Assembly: GCA_947460345.1 (NCBI GenBank)
Contig: CANHGM010000028.1
Location: 1-32,859, forward strand
Source of the DNA: Bacteroidota bacterium
GTDB lineage: Bacteria > Bacteroidota > Bacteroidia > UKL13-3
Reading direction: 5' to 3'
Length of the DNA: 32,859 nucleotides
Below the pieces are notes generated by a model. The model was not told where the DNA came from. It searched no databases and saw only the letters and a program-made list of their open reading frames with translations. The position numbers and the translations under genes were made by a program. Of the stretch, positions 3,039 through 19,661 are shown one piece after another (positions within the stretch are counted from its first letter, which is position 1; the number at the start of each line of letters is the position of its first letter).

Positions 3039-3077
3039 AACCCACGCCGTAATGCTTTCGGCGGGTTCTTGGTTTTG
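3039..3077. repeat. 39-base hairpin repeat, left member flanking repeat copy B
   Basis: AACCCACGCCG (3039-3049) pairs with CGGCGGGTT (3059-3067). The 39-base stretch matches 28 of 39 positions of 3305-3343 in the same orientation; both end in CTTGGTTTTG. The two copies bracket repeat copy B (3117-3266). Nothing else is seen in 3006-3116. Confidence 0.45.
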
Positions 3078-3116
3078 TGGTCAGATTGTTTTCAGATTGC
3101 AATCACTCAAGTAGAA

Positions 3117-3266
3117 GTCGTTCTTCATAAACAGTGACTTAAATATAAAAGCACGGTCTGTGACCTGGGAATGTTAAGAATGGTTTTTAAAGTATTGCTA
3201 TGTTTGAAATCGGGTTGCAAACCCTACTAATATAAATATATCACCATTCTTGAAGAACGGTGATAA
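3117..3266 (+). repeat. Dispersed hairpin-ended repeat, copy B
   Basis: About 150 bp, nearly identical to copy A from 3134 to 3266. The right end (3241-3266) keeps the hairpin, with one change in each arm (CACCATTCTT-G-AAGAACGGTG); the left end (3117-3135) is eroded. The shared interior includes the stretch around CACGGTCTGTGACCTGGG and the GGGTT-GCA-AACCC hairpin. Confidence 0.85.
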
Positions 3267-3304
3267 AGTGAGGGGGTTAAAATTATTTGTATATAAAAAA
3301 ATTG

Positions 3305-3350: not shown

Positions 3351-3742
3351 TTATAAACTAAAAAGATCTATAATTTTCAATCCTTCAATGTTGTTAAAAT
3401 CTGTCACATTGCGAGTAATCAAGGTGAAGCCATAAACAATAGCAGTGGAGGCTATAATTGCATCAGGAAGCTTAAGCTTATATTTCTTTCTTATATATGC
3501 TGTTTTTAATTTAATCTGTTGTTCTAATTCTACAACTTCTATGTCATTAATAAAGCCATGTAAAAGTTCTATGTCTTCTTCAGCAGAGTATTCCAACAAA
3601 GCAACTCAATCTCTGAAATGACAGAAATAAGAGGTTTGTCATTCACAAGTAGTTAGTCTATGAATTTCTCAGCTTGGGGTGAAAATTGTTTCTGCAAATA
3701 ATAAATTACAGTATTAGTATCCCAAAGGTATCTTATTCCCAT
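3351..3742 (-). pseudogene. vapC: VapC-type PIN-domain toxin, inactivated by a stop and a frameshift
   Basis: Read from ATG 3742, the frame gives MGIRYLWDTNTVIYYLQ, whose D8 is the first PIN-domain acid, and then meets TAA at codon 30 (3655-3653). The same frame continues as LLVNDKPLISVISEIELL, carrying the conserved SEIE glutamate. A frameshift near 3600 moves the rest into another frame (3599-3351), which holds LPDAIIASTA and TRNVTDF with the remaining acidic residues. All four family blocks are present, so the full-length ancestor had about 130 residues and was a VapC ribonuclease. With a stop plus a net one-base deletion the product cannot be active unless both are sequencing errors. ATG 3742 overlaps the antitoxin stop by ten bases (ATGGGAATAA), the usual coupling in these operons. 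Confidence 0.8.
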
Positions 3743-3948
3743 CCGTTACGCAATTGGTCTAATTGGATATCAATGTTTGTTTGAGATTCTCTAGTCATTT
3801 TCCCTTTATATTTATCAGCCCAGTTTGTTGTAGAAGTATCTGGTTCTAATTTTTCTTGTCTCAATCTTATAAGATCAAGGAATTCCAAATCCCGCAAGAG
3901 TCTTATGGCTTTGTTGTTAATGATATCAATGGTGATAGTACGTATCAT
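3733..3948 (-). CDS. VapB-like antitoxin (intact)
   Basis: A 71-residue protein upstream of, and overlapping, the vapC pseudogene. The start MIRTITIDIINNKAIRLLRD matches the beta strand plus helix seen in Bacteroidota antitoxins paired with PIN toxins; the C-terminal half is charged and probably wraps the toxin (RESQTNIDIQLDQLRNGWE). No classical AbrB or RHH motif is evident, so the assignment rests mainly on position and size. It would bind and neutralise VapC and repress the operon. A perfect TAnnTTTG box lies 29 bases upstream of the ATG. Since the toxin is broken, the antitoxin may now be a leftover or may protect against a related toxin elsewhere. Confidence 0.65.
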   Translation of the reverse strand: MIRTITIDIINNKAIRLLRDLEFLDLIRLRQEKLEPDTSTTNWADKYKGKMTRESQTNIDIQLDQLRNGWE

Positions 3949-3976: not shown

Positions 3977-3984
3977 CAAATATA
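3977..3984 (-). promoter_or_regulatory. -7 promoter box of the toxin-antitoxin operon
   Basis: TATATTTG on the minus strand (3984 to 3977) is a perfect TAnnTTTG box, 29 bases before the antitoxin ATG. No clear -33 TTG is seen. Confidence 0.45.
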
Positions 3985-4080
3985 GTAATAATTCTTGAGT
4001 TTTTGAATGATTTGAATCTTTAATTAAATTAAGCTATTGAAACTTGAATAATAAACAGAGGCTCTCTCAAAACTATATAT

Positions 4081-4242
4081 GCGGCCTAGTTGGCAGCGGC
4101 ACACAGTATGGCTGATAGCTGCAGTGCCTGAGTAGGTGGGGCGTCCTGTATAGCTATCGGGAGGCAAGAAGCCAACAACCGCCAGAGCAATGCGAGCTAG
4201 GCAGCTATGAAGGGTATAGCGTACAGCCAGAAATGTACGCCT
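4081..4242. ncRNA. GC-rich patch folding into nested stems: structured RNA candidate
   Basis: This 160-base block is much richer in GC than its surroundings, and its complementary segments nest: GCCTAG (4084-4089) with CTAGGC (4197-4202); TTGGC (4090-4094) with GCCAA (4171-4175); GATAGCT (4114-4120) with AGCTATC (4152-4158). A separate hairpin, GCGTACA/TGTACGC, lies at 4219-4240. Because the stems are symmetrical, the strand is not determined. The minus strand would place it about 130 bases upstream of the antitoxin gene. I cannot match it to a known family. It could equally be the remnant of a mobile element such as a group II intron or an IS-associated guide RNA. A stop-free minus-strand frame crosses it but has no start. 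Confidence 0.4.
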
Positions 4243-4315
4243 TAAAATTATATATATACCTGGCCATCGTGAATTATATAAAAAAAGTTCTGTAATCTGT
4301 GATCGAAAAACTAGG

Positions 4316-4397
4316 TATATAAAGTATTGCTATGTTTGAAATCGGGTTGCAAACCCTACTAATATAAATATATCACCATTCTTGAAGAACGGTGATA
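4316..4397 (+). repeat. Dispersed hairpin-ended repeat, partial copy C (right half)
   Basis: From the AAAGTATTGCTATG stretch (4321 on) to GGTGATA (4397) this matches copy B almost base for base, including the GGGTT-GCA-AACCC hairpin and the right-end hairpin. The left half is replaced by unrelated or highly diverged sequence. Confidence 0.8.
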
Positions 4398-4406
4398 GCG
4401 AGGGCA

Positions 4407-4442
4407 TAAAAAAAACCGCGTATCGAGTTCCGAAACGCGGTT
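4407..4442 (-). terminator. Terminator of the 515-residue T9SS cargo gene
   Basis: On the minus strand AACCGCGT (4442-4435) pairs with ACGCGGTT (4421-4414), followed by a run of T (4415-4408). It lies 21 bases after the stop codon of the gene at 4463-6010. Confidence 0.85.
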
Positions 4443-4462: not shown

Positions 4463-6010
4463 TTATTTTTGAATAATGATCGGATATACCTTGTATTGGT
4501 CTCCAGAAATAATTCTCATATGATATAAACCATTGGAGAAGTTGGTGAAATCAAATTTATGGGTATAAGAACCGGCAGATTGCATAACTCTTAATTGAGA
4601 TTGAATCAACTGACCGTTCATATTATAAATTTCAATTTCAATTTCTTTGGGTTCTTTCAAATTATATTCAATCAAAGAAAAATCATTGGTAGGATTTGGA
4701 TAGATTGAAAATTGTTCAAAAATGCCTGATGAAACAGGCTCAGATAAACCTAATTCAGGTGTTAAACTACTTCCACCACCTTTGCAGTCCTTGATATATA
4801 TTTTTTGTGCAGCTGAGAGTTGGATGGGCCCAACTTGATTTACAATACTGTTTATTCTAAAGTAATAAGAACTGCCGAAAGTGTTTGCAAGCAATTCTTT
4901 AGTTACGGTTCCGTTGCTATTTACAGTTCCAAAAGTATAAAATGTGGTATTGACACCATACTGTGCGTTACCGCCTGAAATGGTTTTATTATTACAATCC
5001 ACAAATGCCAGCGTCACGGGAACCGTCTGAAATGTTACAACCGGTGCTGGTGATTTACTCATATCAAAATAGCCCAATTGCTGACGAGCACCAGCATAAT
5101 TCATTCTAAAATATACATAATCTCTATAGGGTGCAAGCGGAGCAGCAGGGAGATTAACAACAGCATAGCCTGATGCATTTGTAGTAGCGACATTGTTGGT
5201 ATAAGAAGGATATTTGGTATTAGTGAAATTCCAAAAATCAACTGTACCTCCAGCAATCCCTTGACCCTTGCTGTCAATCAAACGAACAGTTGCCGTGCGG
5301 TTTGAGGTAATACAGCCATTCACACCAACTACATTTTCTTGTCCTGCTGAATTTTTAAAAGTATAATTCCCGGCCAACAAATAGCCCCCAGCCCAAGGAA
5401 AATAGGAAGTAGTATCAAGACCTCTATATAACAAACTAGGATTCACCGGCACCTGTACATAGGAGGCCAGAAAATCAACATTTTGTGTTACACCACTAAC
5501 TGTGACAGTTGATTTCCTTTCACTTCCTCTGCGATAATCCATCTGAAAATCATAGGTACCCGGCAACAAATAGATACTTTTCACCCCTTTGGAGGTAATA
5601 CCTACTAAATAATCTGTACTTTGAGCATTGCCTTTAGTATATACACTGGCATTTAAACCGGTAGTAATGATACTATCACAACTTGTCAAACGCATGCTCA
5701 ATTTAGTTGTTTGCACAGTAGGGAGATTGGTACCTGCCAAAATGGAAAAATCATAATTAGCCGAATTATAATTGACCCTAAACATATAGGTTTGCCCAAC
5801 TGTCAAATTACTAATATTCAATAAACCATTTTTGGTTAATCCTTTAAACACAAAACCCGAAGCGTCTTTTAAATAAACGCTGGCAGAAGCACCTGTAATA
5901 GTATTTACACTTGATTCATCAAGTAATTTAACATCTACATTGATGGTTGAAGCATTTATGACCTTGATAGAAACCATCAAAATCATTAAAAGAAAGTATA
6001 ATTTTTTCAT
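4463..6010 (-). CDS. Secreted T9SS cargo protein with repeated beta-sandwich modules and type A sorting domain
   Basis: The 515-residue protein starts with a signal peptide (MKKLYFLLMILMVSIKVINA). Residues 21-430 look like several tandem beta-sandwich modules of the carboxypeptidase-regulatory or prealbumin type: repeated phrases such as VDVKLLDESS, ATVRLIDSKGQGIAGG and TVPVTLAFVDCNNKTISGG, each followed by an aromatic GxYxF(R/Q)xNY strand. Residues 434-515 are a type A C-terminal sorting domain: YPNPTNDF, then IEIYNMNGQLI, and the ending GLYHMRII and KVYPIIIQK. The protein is therefore expected to cross the outer membrane by T9SS and be surface-attached or released. No enzymatic domain is visible, so it may be structural or adhesive. 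A terminator follows directly. Confidence 0.8.
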   Translation of the reverse strand: MKKLYFLLMILMVSIKVINASTINVDVKLLDESSVNTITGASASVYLKDASGFVFKGLTKNGLLNISNLTVGQTYMFRVNYNSANYDFSILAGTNLPTVQTTKLSMRLTSCDSIITTGLNASVYTKGNAQSTDYLVGITSKGVKSIYLLPGTYDFQMDYRRGSERKSTVTVSGVTQNVDFLASYVQVPVNPSLLYRGLDTTSYFPWAGGYLLAGNYTFKNSAGQENVVGVNGCITSNRTATVRLIDSKGQGIAGGTVDFWNFTNTKYPSYTNNVATTNASGYAVVNLPAAPLAPYRDYVYFRMNYAGARQQLGYFDMSKSPAPVVTFQTVPVTLAFVDCNNKTISGGNAQYGVNTTFYTFGTVNSNGTVTKELLANTFGSSYYFRINSIVNQVGPIQLSAAQKIYIKDCKGGGSSLTPELGLSEPVSSGIFEQFSIYPNPTNDFSLIEYNLKEPKEIEIEIYNMNGQLIQSQLRVMQSAGSYTHKFDFTNFSNGLYHMRIISGDQYKVYPIIIQK

Positions 6011-15808: not shown

Positions 15809-17080
15809 ATGAATATTCAAGACGTTAAAAATAGATTTGAAATTATAGGAAAGTCTCCTTTGCTAAACATAGCCCTTGAAACAGCTATAAAAGTAGCACC
15901 TACAGAAATGTCGGTTTTGATCAATGGAGAAAGTGGTGTAGGTAAAGAAAATTTTTCAAAAATTATACATGCATTAAGTTTAAGAAAACACGGACCTTTT
16001 ATCGCTGTTAACTGTGGTGCCATTCCTGAAGGAACTATTGATTCAGAATTATTTGGTCATGAGAAAGGAGCTTTTACCGGAGCACATGATACCAGAAAAG
16101 GCTATTTTGAAACCGTAAATACTGGTACTATTTTCTTAGACGAAATAGGCGAAATGCCACTTGAAACACAATCGCGTTTATTGAGAATTTTAGAATCAGG
16201 TGAGTTTATAAAAGTAGGGGCTAGTAAAGCCCAAAAAACCGATGTGAGGGTGATAGCTGCTACCAATAAAGATTTATTAGAGTTAACTTCAAAAGGCAGG
16301 TTTAGAGAAGACTTATATTACAGGTTGTGCACTGTGCCTATCAAAGTGCCACCATTAAGAGAAAGAGGTGCTGATATATTGATGATATTTAAAAAATTTG
16401 CTCAAGACTTTGCTGAAAAATATAGAGTAACTCCTGTTATATTAGACGAACAAGCCCAACAAGTATTAGTTACCTATAGATGGCCAGGTAATATTCGTCA
16501 ATTAAAAAATATATGTGAGCAATTGACTGTTTTAGTAGAAGACAGAAATATATCGGCTGAAAATATATATCAATACTTACCTAAAGAATATCCTTCGGTG
16601 CCTATGGTTTCATCAAACTCTAATGACACAGGTATTTCAGAAAGAGATATTTTTTATAAAGTGTTGTTTGACCTAAGAAAAGACATGAATGATTTGAAGC
16701 AAATTGTGTTTGGTATGATAGGTCAAAATCCTGAAATGCCTATTGAAAATAATGAAGTACTTAATAGAATCATGAGTACTGATACTGCCTTACAAGTGCA
16801 ATCTAAAAATCAAACCAATTTCAACCAGCATTTTAATCTTCCACAAAACAATATTCAATCTCAGCCATCATATGTGATTCATCAACCAGTAGAGGAGATT
16901 ATAGAAATAAAAGAACAACCCAAAGAAGAAATTCTCTCTCTTGAAAAAAAGGAATTAGAACTTATCAAAAGAGCTCTTGAAAAACATAGAGGGAGAAGAA
17001 GAAGAGCAGCTAAAGAATTGGGCATCTCAGAGCGAACACTATATAGAAAAATAAAACAATATAACTTAGAAGAATATTAA
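15809..17080 (+). CDS. Sigma-54-dependent transcription activator without a receiver domain
   Basis: 423 residues. The AAA+ domain begins almost at the N-terminus: Walker A GESGVGKE (40-47), GAFTGA (87-92) for sigma-54 contact, Walker B GTIFLDEIGE (106-115), and the LYYRL and RWPGNIRQL motifs. A linker of about 110 residues, rich in Gln, Asn and Glu, leads to a Fis-type helix-turn-helix (about 378-420, RRRRAAKELGISERTLYRKI). No response-regulator, GAF or PAS domain precedes the ATPase and no sensor kinase lies nearby, so control must come through other partners or through its own promoter. It should hydrolyse ATP to open RpoN-bound promoters. Its stop codon overlaps that of the receptor gene on the other strand. 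Confidence 0.93.
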   Translation: MNIQDVKNRFEIIGKSPLLNIALETAIKVAPTEMSVLINGESGVGKENFSKIIHALSLRKHGPFIAVNCGAIPEGTIDSELFGHEKGAFTGAHDTRKGYFETVNTGTIFLDEIGEMPLETQSRLLRILESGEFIKVGASKAQKTDVRVIAATNKDLLELTSKGRFREDLYYRLCTVPIKVPPLRERGADILMIFKKFAQDFAEKYRVTPVILDEQAQQVLVTYRWPGNIRQLKNICEQLTVLVEDRNISAENIYQYLPKEYPSVPMVSSNSNDTGISERDIFYKVLFDLRKDMNDLKQIVFGMIGQNPEMPIENNEVLNRIMSTDTALQVQSKNQTNFNQHFNLPQNNIQSQPSYVIHQPVEEIIEIKEQPKEEILSLEKKELELIKRALEKHRGRRRRAAKELGISERTLYRKIKQYNLEEY

Positions 17081-19503
17081 AAATCTAAGGTAACTTTTAA
17101 TAAGAAATTAGTTCCAGCTGAAGGATAATAAAAGTTGTTGTTTACTCTTTGTGCTCCAAACATCCAACCATAGGTATATCCGTTGTTTTCATACTTTGTG
17201 TTGAATATATTATTGCACAACAAATTCAAATTAATCTTACCAAAATTGTTTGTTTGAAAGCTATATATAAATTGTAAATCGTTTAAAAAATACGATTTTA
17301 GCTTTCTTTCATCACTTTGGGTATTGTCTAAATACTGAGTAGCTATATATTTTGTGATATATATTAGTCGTGCGTTTTTGTTAATTGTGTATTTAAATAT
17401 GGATGACCCCACAGCATTGGGTGAAAATGCCAAATCAATATTCTTATAGGTTTTATATATACCGTTTCCTACATAGTTATAGTTTGAATCATAACTATCA
17501 ATATACTCATTAAAGTTGATTATTTTATTTCTTGAAACAGCTACAGACAATGTCCAATCAAGCTTTTTAGAAAAAGTATATATTGAAGAAAACTCTATTC
17601 CTGCTCTGTAACTTTTGGGCACATTTATTCTGTTGTATGCCCCTACATCATTCACACTTCCGTCGTTAATCAATTGATTGGTATAATACATTCCATATAT
17701 ATTGGTTTGTAATAATAACTTGTTAAGTTTTATAGCATGACTTAATTCTAAATTATACAATCTCTCTGGTTTTGGTTCAGATTTTTTAGTGGCATTTATT
17801 AAATCATCTCTCACGGGCTCTCTGTTGCCTAATCCTAAGTATATATAATAGATACCTCTTTTGTTTGTTTTATATTCAGCACCCGCTTTAGGATTAAAAA
17901 ACAAATAGTTTTTATTGGCATTATAAGGAAGCAACACCCCTGAATTATCATTCACTCCTGATGTTTTATATATAATATTTCTGCATTGAAAATCTCCCCA
18001 AATTTTAACTTTGTTGTTCAGTTGATAGTTTATCTTTTCGTAAATATTTATGTCCGTTTTATTGCTATTGCCATTATAGTATGGATGGTTTATTTCAGTG
18101 TTTCCACTATATCTAGCCCAAATAACTTCACCTAAATGCTTACCTATATATGTATTTGCTCCACCACCGGTTATAAACTGAAACTTAGTATTTGTATATA
18201 TATGCGAAAAAACCATCCCCAAAAAGTGGTTATCAAGCCAACGTCTTCTAATCAAGTCTGTTGTGGTTATATGCAGTGAACTATCAACTACTATTTGGTA
18301 ATCTGCTAAAGACCTGTCTTTTTTATACTCTTCATAATAGCCTTTGCCTCTGGTATAGTGCAATGCAATATTAAATACATTTCTTTTATTAAACTCATGA
18401 TTGAGGTGCAATTGGCTATGCGATTGCATGTAATTATCTGTTTGATTGGGATAGGTAAACTCGTTATATATTCTGTTTGGATTATAAGCAAATCCCTTAG
18501 TGCTATATAGAATTTCTTCAGGTATGCCATTCCAAGCTTGGCCTGTTTTTTCTTTACCAGCAAAATGTATCAATTTAAATAACGTTTTATTAATTTTTTT
18601 AACTGCAGATAAATAATATGATTGCAAATCACTTTGGCTTCTGAGCACATATCCATCACTTTTTATATATGACAAACGTGCGGTTATATATCCATTATTA
18701 ATGTTTCCGGTATTGATCATAACGTTAGACAAAGCAGATGTTCTATTGCCTGGGTATTGCTGATATTGCTTGCTTTCTGGTATGATATATCCTGCACCTA
18801 TATTTAAACTTGTACTGGCATTTTCTTGTGCTTCGTTTGTTTGCATGTTTATAGTACTACCAAATGCCCCTGCTCCATTAGTAGAACTTCCAAGCCCCCT
18901 TTGTATTTGAATACTTTGTAATGAAGAAGCAAAATCAGGCATATTTACAAAAAACACAGTTTGACTTTCAGCATCATTTAGCGGTACACCATTTACAGTG
19001 ATATTGGTACGTGTGGGGTCAGCCCCTCTTATTCTCAAACCTGTATATCCTATACCATTGCCTGCATCGCTTGTAGCTACAGCATTGGGTGTTTGGCTAA
19101 GTATCATGGGTATATCTCTACCTGTATTATAATTCTTAATTTCACTAACGCTATAGTGCGTATTCGTTGGATTTGGATTCTCTCTTGTTGCTTTGATAAT
19201 TACGCTTTCTAAACTTACCACATCACTGTTCATATATATAATCGCTTTTGAAGCATTGGATTCATACACATATATATATGTCTTGTAAGAAGGCTTGAGT
19301 ATATTACACTTTGCATTACTTTGAACTTTTGCTGTATAAACAATAGCTCCTGAGGTATCAGTAGTAGCTACTATTTGGTTATTATCTACTTGCGAAATTT
19401 TAGCTCCTACAATGGGTTTAAAGGTATCTGCATCAAGCACTTTTTGAGCAAATGCGTCCATTGTAATAATAGAAAGTAAAATAGAAAGAATTCTTGTTCT
19501 CAT
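17077..19503 (-). CDS. TonB-dependent outer membrane receptor, predicted thiamine uptake (Omr1-like)
   Basis: 808 residues from the ATG at 19503, chosen because MRTRILSILLSIITMDAFAQ is a proper signal peptide. The longer frame back to 19563 would run into the leader hairpin. A carboxypeptidase-regulatory-like domain (about 20-105) precedes the plug (ILSQTPNAVATSDAGNGIG, RIRGADPTRTNITVNGVPL) and the 22-strand barrel, which ends in the usual aromatic residue (KVTLDF). A TPP riboswitch sits in the leader, so the substrate is probably thiamine, its phosphates or a precursor; such receptors have been predicted in Bacteroidota and called Omr1. The usual companion pnuT is not next to it. It needs TonB-ExbBD for energy. 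The stop overlaps the sigma-54 activator stop by four bases. Confidence 0.88.
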   Translation of the reverse strand: MRTRILSILLSIITMDAFAQKVLDADTFKPIVGAKISQVDNNQIVATTDTSGAIVYTAKVQSNAKCNILKPSYKTYIYVYESNASKAIIYMNSDVVSLESVIIKATRENPNPTNTHYSVSEIKNYNTGRDIPMILSQTPNAVATSDAGNGIGYTGLRIRGADPTRTNITVNGVPLNDAESQTVFFVNMPDFASSLQSIQIQRGLGSSTNGAGAFGSTINMQTNEAQENASTSLNIGAGYIIPESKQYQQYPGNRTSALSNVMINTGNINNGYITARLSYIKSDGYVLRSQSDLQSYYLSAVKKINKTLFKLIHFAGKEKTGQAWNGIPEEILYSTKGFAYNPNRIYNEFTYPNQTDNYMQSHSQLHLNHEFNKRNVFNIALHYTRGKGYYEEYKKDRSLADYQIVVDSSLHITTTDLIRRRWLDNHFLGMVFSHIYTNTKFQFITGGGANTYIGKHLGEVIWARYSGNTEINHPYYNGNSNKTDINIYEKINYQLNNKVKIWGDFQCRNIIYKTSGVNDNSGVLLPYNANKNYLFFNPKAGAEYKTNKRGIYYIYLGLGNREPVRDDLINATKKSEPKPERLYNLELSHAIKLNKLLLQTNIYGMYYTNQLINDGSVNDVGAYNRINVPKSYRAGIEFSSIYTFSKKLDWTLSVAVSRNKIINFNEYIDSYDSNYNYVGNGIYKTYKNIDLAFSPNAVGSSIFKYTINKNARLIYITKYIATQYLDNTQSDERKLKSYFLNDLQFIYSFQTNNFGKINLNLLCNNIFNTKYENNGYTYGWMFGAQRVNNNFYYPSAGTNFLLKVTLDF

Positions 19504-19557
19504 GTTCTGATTAATTAAAATAGAAGCATAAACACACGAGAATTGCTTAGAAAGCAT

Positions 19558-19576
19558 AGACAAAATGTATTTGTCT
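19558..19576 (-). promoter_or_regulatory. Hairpin after the TPP aptamer, possible expression platform
   Basis: On the minus strand AGACAAA (19576-19570) pairs with TTTGTCT (19564-19558) around a five-base loop, directly after the aptamer. No T-run follows, so control by translation or by a longer rearrangement is more likely than a simple terminator. Confidence 0.4.
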
Positions 19577-19577
19577 T

Positions 19578-19653
19578 ATCTTTTCCCTACGCAGGTATAA
19601 TCCTGATCAGGTTCTAAGGGTAATTCTCAGTCTGTATAGACACCCCTAAAGAT
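19578..19653 (-). promoter_or_regulatory. TPP riboswitch (THI element)
   Basis: Read on the minus strand, the thi-box consensus is plain: GGGGTGTC, CTGAGA, ACCCTT, AACCTGAT, then ATACCTGCGTAGGGAA. The closing stem ATCTTT (19653-19648) pairs with AAAGAT (19583-19578). The aptamer binds thiamine pyrophosphate and should switch off the receptor gene, whose ATG is 74 bases downstream. A perfect -7 box eight bases upstream puts the transcript start at the aptamer's first stem. Confidence 0.95.
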
Positions 19654-19661
19654 TTATTTGG

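Follow-up and report, generated by a model that had tools for sequence, protein, structure and literature searches.

The question raised by this locus is whether a short GC-rich stretch in a gene-free gap of an AT-rich Bacteroidota genome is a structured RNA or a piece of DNA with another history. The stretch occupies positions 4081–4242 of the window (the whole 32,859-nt piece of DNA that was analysed). An earlier note, made from the sequence alone, had taken nested complementary segments at this place as a pointer to a folded RNA and had left a stand-alone RNA, a mobile-element RNA and an antitoxin-linked leader as options. We found that the true anomaly of the segment is its base composition, not the nesting; the earlier note was right to be cautious and keep several options in view, but wrong in its central argument from nested stems.

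Composition, edges and flanking repeats

The G+C content of 4081–4242 is 56.8% vs a window mean of 33.7%. When 103,648 non-coding 160-nt positions, taken from 2.41 of the 3.00 Mb of the genome (80%), were ranked by G+C content, 4081–4240 came out at the top with 56.9%; the intergenic background of the host genome has a mean of 28.2% and a standard deviation of 6.5% (160-nt windows). Next in the ranking are tRNA gene pairs (56.2, 53.8 and 51.2%), and a tmRNA-like stretch, which by its sequence resembles the 5′ part of tmRNA, stands at 49.4%. Both edges of the segment are abrupt: at 4080/4081 the G+C content rises from 30 to 75%, and at 4240/4241 it falls from 50 to 15%. A stop-free frame of 101 codons spans the segment on the − strand (4027–4329). 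Searches with the frames of the segment yielded no matches in Pfam, PHROGs and NCBIfam, nor in tblastn comparisons with phages and plasmids; the segment has no recognisable coding content. As had been claimed, the locus is gene-free and GC-rich in AT-rich surroundings.

The segment and the repeats at its sides are as follows.

4081–4243, no strand assigned: GC-rich orphan segment, proposed 163-bp insertion, with 57% GC, abrupt edges and no relatives found
4069–4080, + strand: left flanking direct repeat AAAACTATATAT, identical to 4244–4255 at 11 of 12 positions
4244–4255, + strand: right flanking direct repeat AAAATTATATAT, pairing with 4069–4080

A match of 11/12 is equalled in 18 of 20,000 (0.09%) equally spaced, AT-matched pairs from the same genome, a figure to be read with the fact that the repeats are AT-rich, of low complexity and were spotted post hoc.

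The insertion reading

We put at about even odds (a probability of about 0.5) the reading that 4081–4243 is a short (about 163 bp) piece of foreign GC-rich DNA inserted at an AT-rich site in a variable chromosomal region. This reading is favoured because the edges are abrupt, 12-bp repeats flank the segment, no relatives were found, and REP-like repeats and a broken vapC gene lie nearby; it is favoured also because the segment is present in a single copy, has the highest G+C content of the genome's ranked non-coding 160-nt windows and sits in a rearranged neighbourhood. For the same reasons (edges, repeats, lack of relatives, neighbourhood) the mobile-element option fits best among those that the earlier note had offered.

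The composition, edges, flanking repeats and lack of detectable relatives were observed directly; the insertion itself, and the enzyme responsible, are inferred. The insertion would have left or used a 12-bp direct repeat (AAAAYTATATAT) on either side, so that the AT-rich target, once duplicated, would now flank the segment. As the likeliest mechanism, either the enzyme of another element would have mobilised a non-autonomous fragment, or a DNA fragment would have been captured at a staggered break. The ends of the segment carry no terminal inverted repeats (in 95% of shuffles the 30-nt ends match each other at least as well; p 0.95), and no second copy, attached transposase or related insertion sequence was found for it; thus, no known transposition mechanism is matched. 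An empty site could not be demonstrated because close relatives lack the locus. It counts against the insertion that equally high G+C content would be expected here of a native gene for a structured RNA, the runners-up in the ranking being tRNA pairs and the tmRNA-like stretch. It would be a long shot, by analogy with eukaryotic short retroelements, that the segment is a small mobile element consisting of little beyond a structured RNA, which duplicates a 12-bp target on insertion, by a mechanism free of terminal inverted repeats.

Stems and predicted fold

All four pairings described in the earlier note are present: 4084–4089 with 4197–4202 (GCCTAG/CTAGGC), 4090–4094 with 4171–4175 (TTGGC/GCCAA), 4114–4120 with 4152–4158 (GATAGCT/AGCTATC), and the complementary hairpin arms 4219–4225 and 4234–4240. 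The nesting as such did not bear out a folded RNA, since shuffles match it in 31–38% of cases and the fold has a z-score of −1.60. Specifically, of 1000 dinucleotide shuffles, 31% contain nested perfect helices totalling at least 19 bp (the total observed) and 38% contain ones totalling at least 18 bp (the total of the earlier note); a 7-bp hairpin whose loop is no longer than 8 nt arises in 6% of dinucleotide shuffles. The elements of the predicted fold are listed below.

4081–4205, + strand: closing stem (4081–4095 with 4191–4205), pair probabilities about 0.85–0.93 by thermodynamic prediction only
4112–4160, + strand: long hairpin with irregular pairing (GATAGCTGCAG... / ...CTGTATAGCTATC), its pairs reaching probabilities of 0.90
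4163–4173, + strand: small hairpin GGC-AAGAA-GCC, pair probability 0.89
4219–4240, + strand: 7-bp hairpin GCGTACA...TGTACGC, equally good in 6% of shuffles

The best + strand fold has a minimum free energy of −62.3 kcal/mol and a z-score of −1.60, a stability that 9 of 200 shuffles attain; the − strand fold has a z-score of −0.97. The segment is the most stable 160-nt fold in the whole window; among 953 real 162-nt pieces of equal G+C content, 3.7% fold equally well or better. The middle stem proposed earlier (4090–4094/4171–4175) is absent from the best fold, which lengthens the closing stem to 4095/4191 and adds the GGC-AAGAA-GCC hairpin in its place; a structure drawn with that middle stem reaches −44.9 vs −62.3 kcal/mol, and an alternative 8-bp pairing, 4115–4122/4201–4208, gives −53.4 kcal/mol. 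The stable folds are probably in large part a by-product of the high G+C content of the segment. On the + strand we found neither a Bacteroidota promoter (TTG-N17-23-TAnnTTTG) just 5′ of the segment nor an intrinsic terminator 3′ of it. The hairpin 4219–4240 was ruled out as an intrinsic terminator because the T-run behind it is missing.

Search for relatives of the segment

Neither of the searches that had been proposed as checks, a comparison with Rfam covariance models and a collection of homologues by nucleotide search, produced a credible family or a relative. Rfam 15 gave no match on the locus at gathering thresholds, and the hits up to E 10 were at chance level. By BLAST the segment is single copy in its own genome; no true match was seen in 58 relatives and 64 same-order genomes, or in phage, plasmid and E. 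coli collections. A covariance model built from the single sequence found no relatives in 395 genomes of the class and 395 of the phylum (overlapping draws), and with laxer filters no matches in 40 relatives. The reach of a single-sequence model is limited, so distant relatives may exist. Exact 18–20-mers of the segment are absent from the viral and genome contigs searched; 27 genome contigs and one viral contig contain a 16-mer of the closing stem, with no model match near it. A search with a 14-mer pattern was uninformative, the pattern being too short.

Four hits were dismissed as chance. The sole BLAST relative (30 nt; locus L045 of genome G003) falls within a coding frame of 1005 aa and folds differently; away from the locus, the covariance model gave a single hit (L167), a stretch of 72 nt with 71% GC in which most of the model is missing. 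The other two were a 28-nt phage hit with an E-value of 0.06 and a 28-nt hit in the own genome (L002) that sits inside a membrane-protein ORF.

Genomic neighbourhood

The features around the segment are these.

179–328, + strand: REP-like paired repeat, copy 1, 93–95% identical to copy 2
3119–3270, + strand: REP-like paired repeat, copy 2
3351–3742, − strand: broken vapC (PIN domain), with an early in-frame stop and the conserved C-terminal half in another frame
3733–3948, − strand: VapB-like antitoxin ORF, 71 aa, with relatives in 10 other Bacteroidota genomes
4314–4397, + strand: REP-like paired repeat, copy 3, which lacks its left half, 98% identical to 3148–3270

Three direct copies of the REP-like repeat are thus found inside 4.4 kb. 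The repeat is about 150 bp long, and its two halves, inverted relative to each other, both carry a GAACGG-type hairpin; it occurs, complete or partial, at about 20 places in the genome (e.g. L025–L027), and half-units are also found alone. Three Y1 (PF01797) transposase genes are present in the genome, and one of them, on contig C17, lies ∼0.7 kb from a repeat copy. We infer that the repeats and the Y1 genes form a REP/RAYT system, the layout being that of REPINs.

The antitoxin ORF is intact while its vapC partner, still recognised by Pfam as a PIN domain (3.8e-8 on 3351–3599), is broken by the in-frame stop and the change of frame. To the right of the segment, a gene for a secreted protein (4463–6010, − strand) had no hit at 1e-20 in any of the 63 remaining genomes of the order. 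The contig begins, ∼4 kb to the left of the segment, in what from its sequence appears to be the 3′ end of a tRNA gene (1–60 of the window); this start adjoins a gene with an HSDR_N domain (636–1703) and unique ORFs, and is possibly that of a tRNA-borne island. The surroundings of the segment are a variable, often rearranged region, given the REP-like copies, the broken vapC, the lack of same-order matches to 4463–6010 and the tRNA-like contig start.

Alternative explanations

The main rival to the insertion is a stand-alone small RNA, encoded on the + strand and specific to this lineage, made up of the predicted closing stem 4081–4095/4191–4205, hairpins 4112–4160 and 4163–4173 and the 3′ hairpin 4219–4240; it would possibly act in trans or bind a protein, RNA polymerase for instance. 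We regard it as a tentative possibility. GC-rich intergenic regions of AT-rich genomes are enriched in structured RNAs (PMC2704228, PMC6429828), the windows ranked next here include the tRNA pairs and the tmRNA-like stretch, stem pair probabilities rise to about 0.9, and the 160-nt fold is the top one of the window in stability. However, the z-score is only −1.6 and 3.7% of GC-matched real DNA is equally stable, Rfam is empty up to E 10 and no relatives were found, and the + strand has neither the promoter just 5′ nor the terminator 3′. The small RNA and the insertion are not mutually exclusive. That the segment instead belongs to an RNA or mobile ribozyme already described (6S RNA, a group II intron piece, HEARO/omega RNA or retron RNA) is most improbable: with its closing stem, open central part and terminal hairpin, the fold does resemble the general plan of 6S RNA, and the stem order on the − strand looks retron-like, but the Rfam scan up to E 10 lists none of these families. 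The 6S-Flavo model (RF01685) misses the segment, has no matches in the own genome or at the locus, and is weak or absent in relatives, being above its cut-off in 0 of 40; no reverse transcriptase was recognised among the listed ORFs of the window, judged by reading, with some scanned against Pfam.

Rather doubtful is the reading that the segment is the decayed remnant of a protein-coding gene acquired from a GC-richer donor, with no RNA function. The 101-codon frame across the segment (4027–4329, − strand) points that way, and higher G+C content in a single copy is compatible with acquired coding DNA; yet the frame continues beyond the segment into AT-rich flanking DNA, as expected of a frame open by chance, and Pfam, PHROGs, NCBIfam and tblastn against phages and plasmids are all empty. 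The segment also lies 133 bp 5′ of the antitoxin start (− strand), where it could serve as a leader of the VapBC-like antitoxin gene or regulate that gene from upstream. We consider this very unlikely because 11 relatives of the antitoxin, from ten other genomes, lack a similar upstream segment: the covariance model had no matches at these 11 loci, and the DNA 5′ of the relatives is AT-rich non-coding or unrelated sequence. Bacteroidota-type −7 boxes (TAnnTTTG) on the − strand at 3977–3984 and 4068–4075 intervene between the segment and the gene; as an argument against a leader they are suggestive only, because no full Bacteroidota promoter was found there. The vapC partner, moreover, is broken. 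The antitoxin-linked option of the earlier note is accordingly disfavoured.

Comparison with known systems

Like MITEs and other small non-autonomous bacterial insertions (PMC10969869), the segment is short, non-coding, intergenic and foldable, and lies between direct repeats that, although of low complexity and spotted post hoc, resemble a target-site duplication. It differs from them in having no terminal inverted repeats, one genomic copy and no parental insertion sequence found; the several copies or parental insertion sequence expected of MITEs were absent from the own genome, the 64 same-order genomes and plasmids. The segment is not a demonstrated MITE, because terminal inverted repeats and sibling copies are missing.

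Composition screens have found GC-rich intergenic RNAs in AT-rich genomes (PMC2704228, PMC6429828). The segment is likewise a GC-rich island, ranked among tRNA genes, but it is unconserved and so has no consensus structure, and its folding is marginally above chance. Repeats of the REP/REPIN kind with their RAYT genes (PMC3116915, PMC3733652) are represented by the copies that flank the segment (3119–3270, 4314–4397) and by the three Y1 genes of the host genome, one of them near a repeat copy. The segment itself differs in being unrepeated and in sharing no sequence with the nearby repeats; the REP-like repeats were not matched in the own-genome search with the segment.

At present the segment matters little, as a single orphan GC-rich insert without relatives. 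Should it prove to be transcribed, its rank above tRNA pairs, in the type of composition screen that has brought new classes of RNA to light in AT-rich genomes elsewhere, would make it a good candidate for a new RNA specific to its lineage.

Additional observations

Several other elements were seen in the window and the host genome. A hairpin element at 3039–3107 of the window (CCCACGCCGTAATGCTTTCGGCGGG) recurs at several places in the genome (contigs C24 and C1). Two GC-rich intergenic stretches of locus L269 (G000:C3:1-20000), at 2487–2646 and 4282–4441, have the motif CTGCAAAACGT in common, one of the two continuing as TATGCGGC; these are perhaps cassette repeats resembling recombination sites. 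A further GC-rich intergenic repeat family of the host genome (GACGGGCATTGGA...GCAGAAAAACAAGAAACAGTTTTGTGCTGAGGGC...) is found in L226 (2467–2626 and 8018–8177) and L220 (1336–1495). A TPP riboswitch (19567–19657, − strand; 77.5 bits) is located directly 5′ of a TonB-receptor-like gene (17077–19563, − strand), which suggests a role in thiamine uptake.
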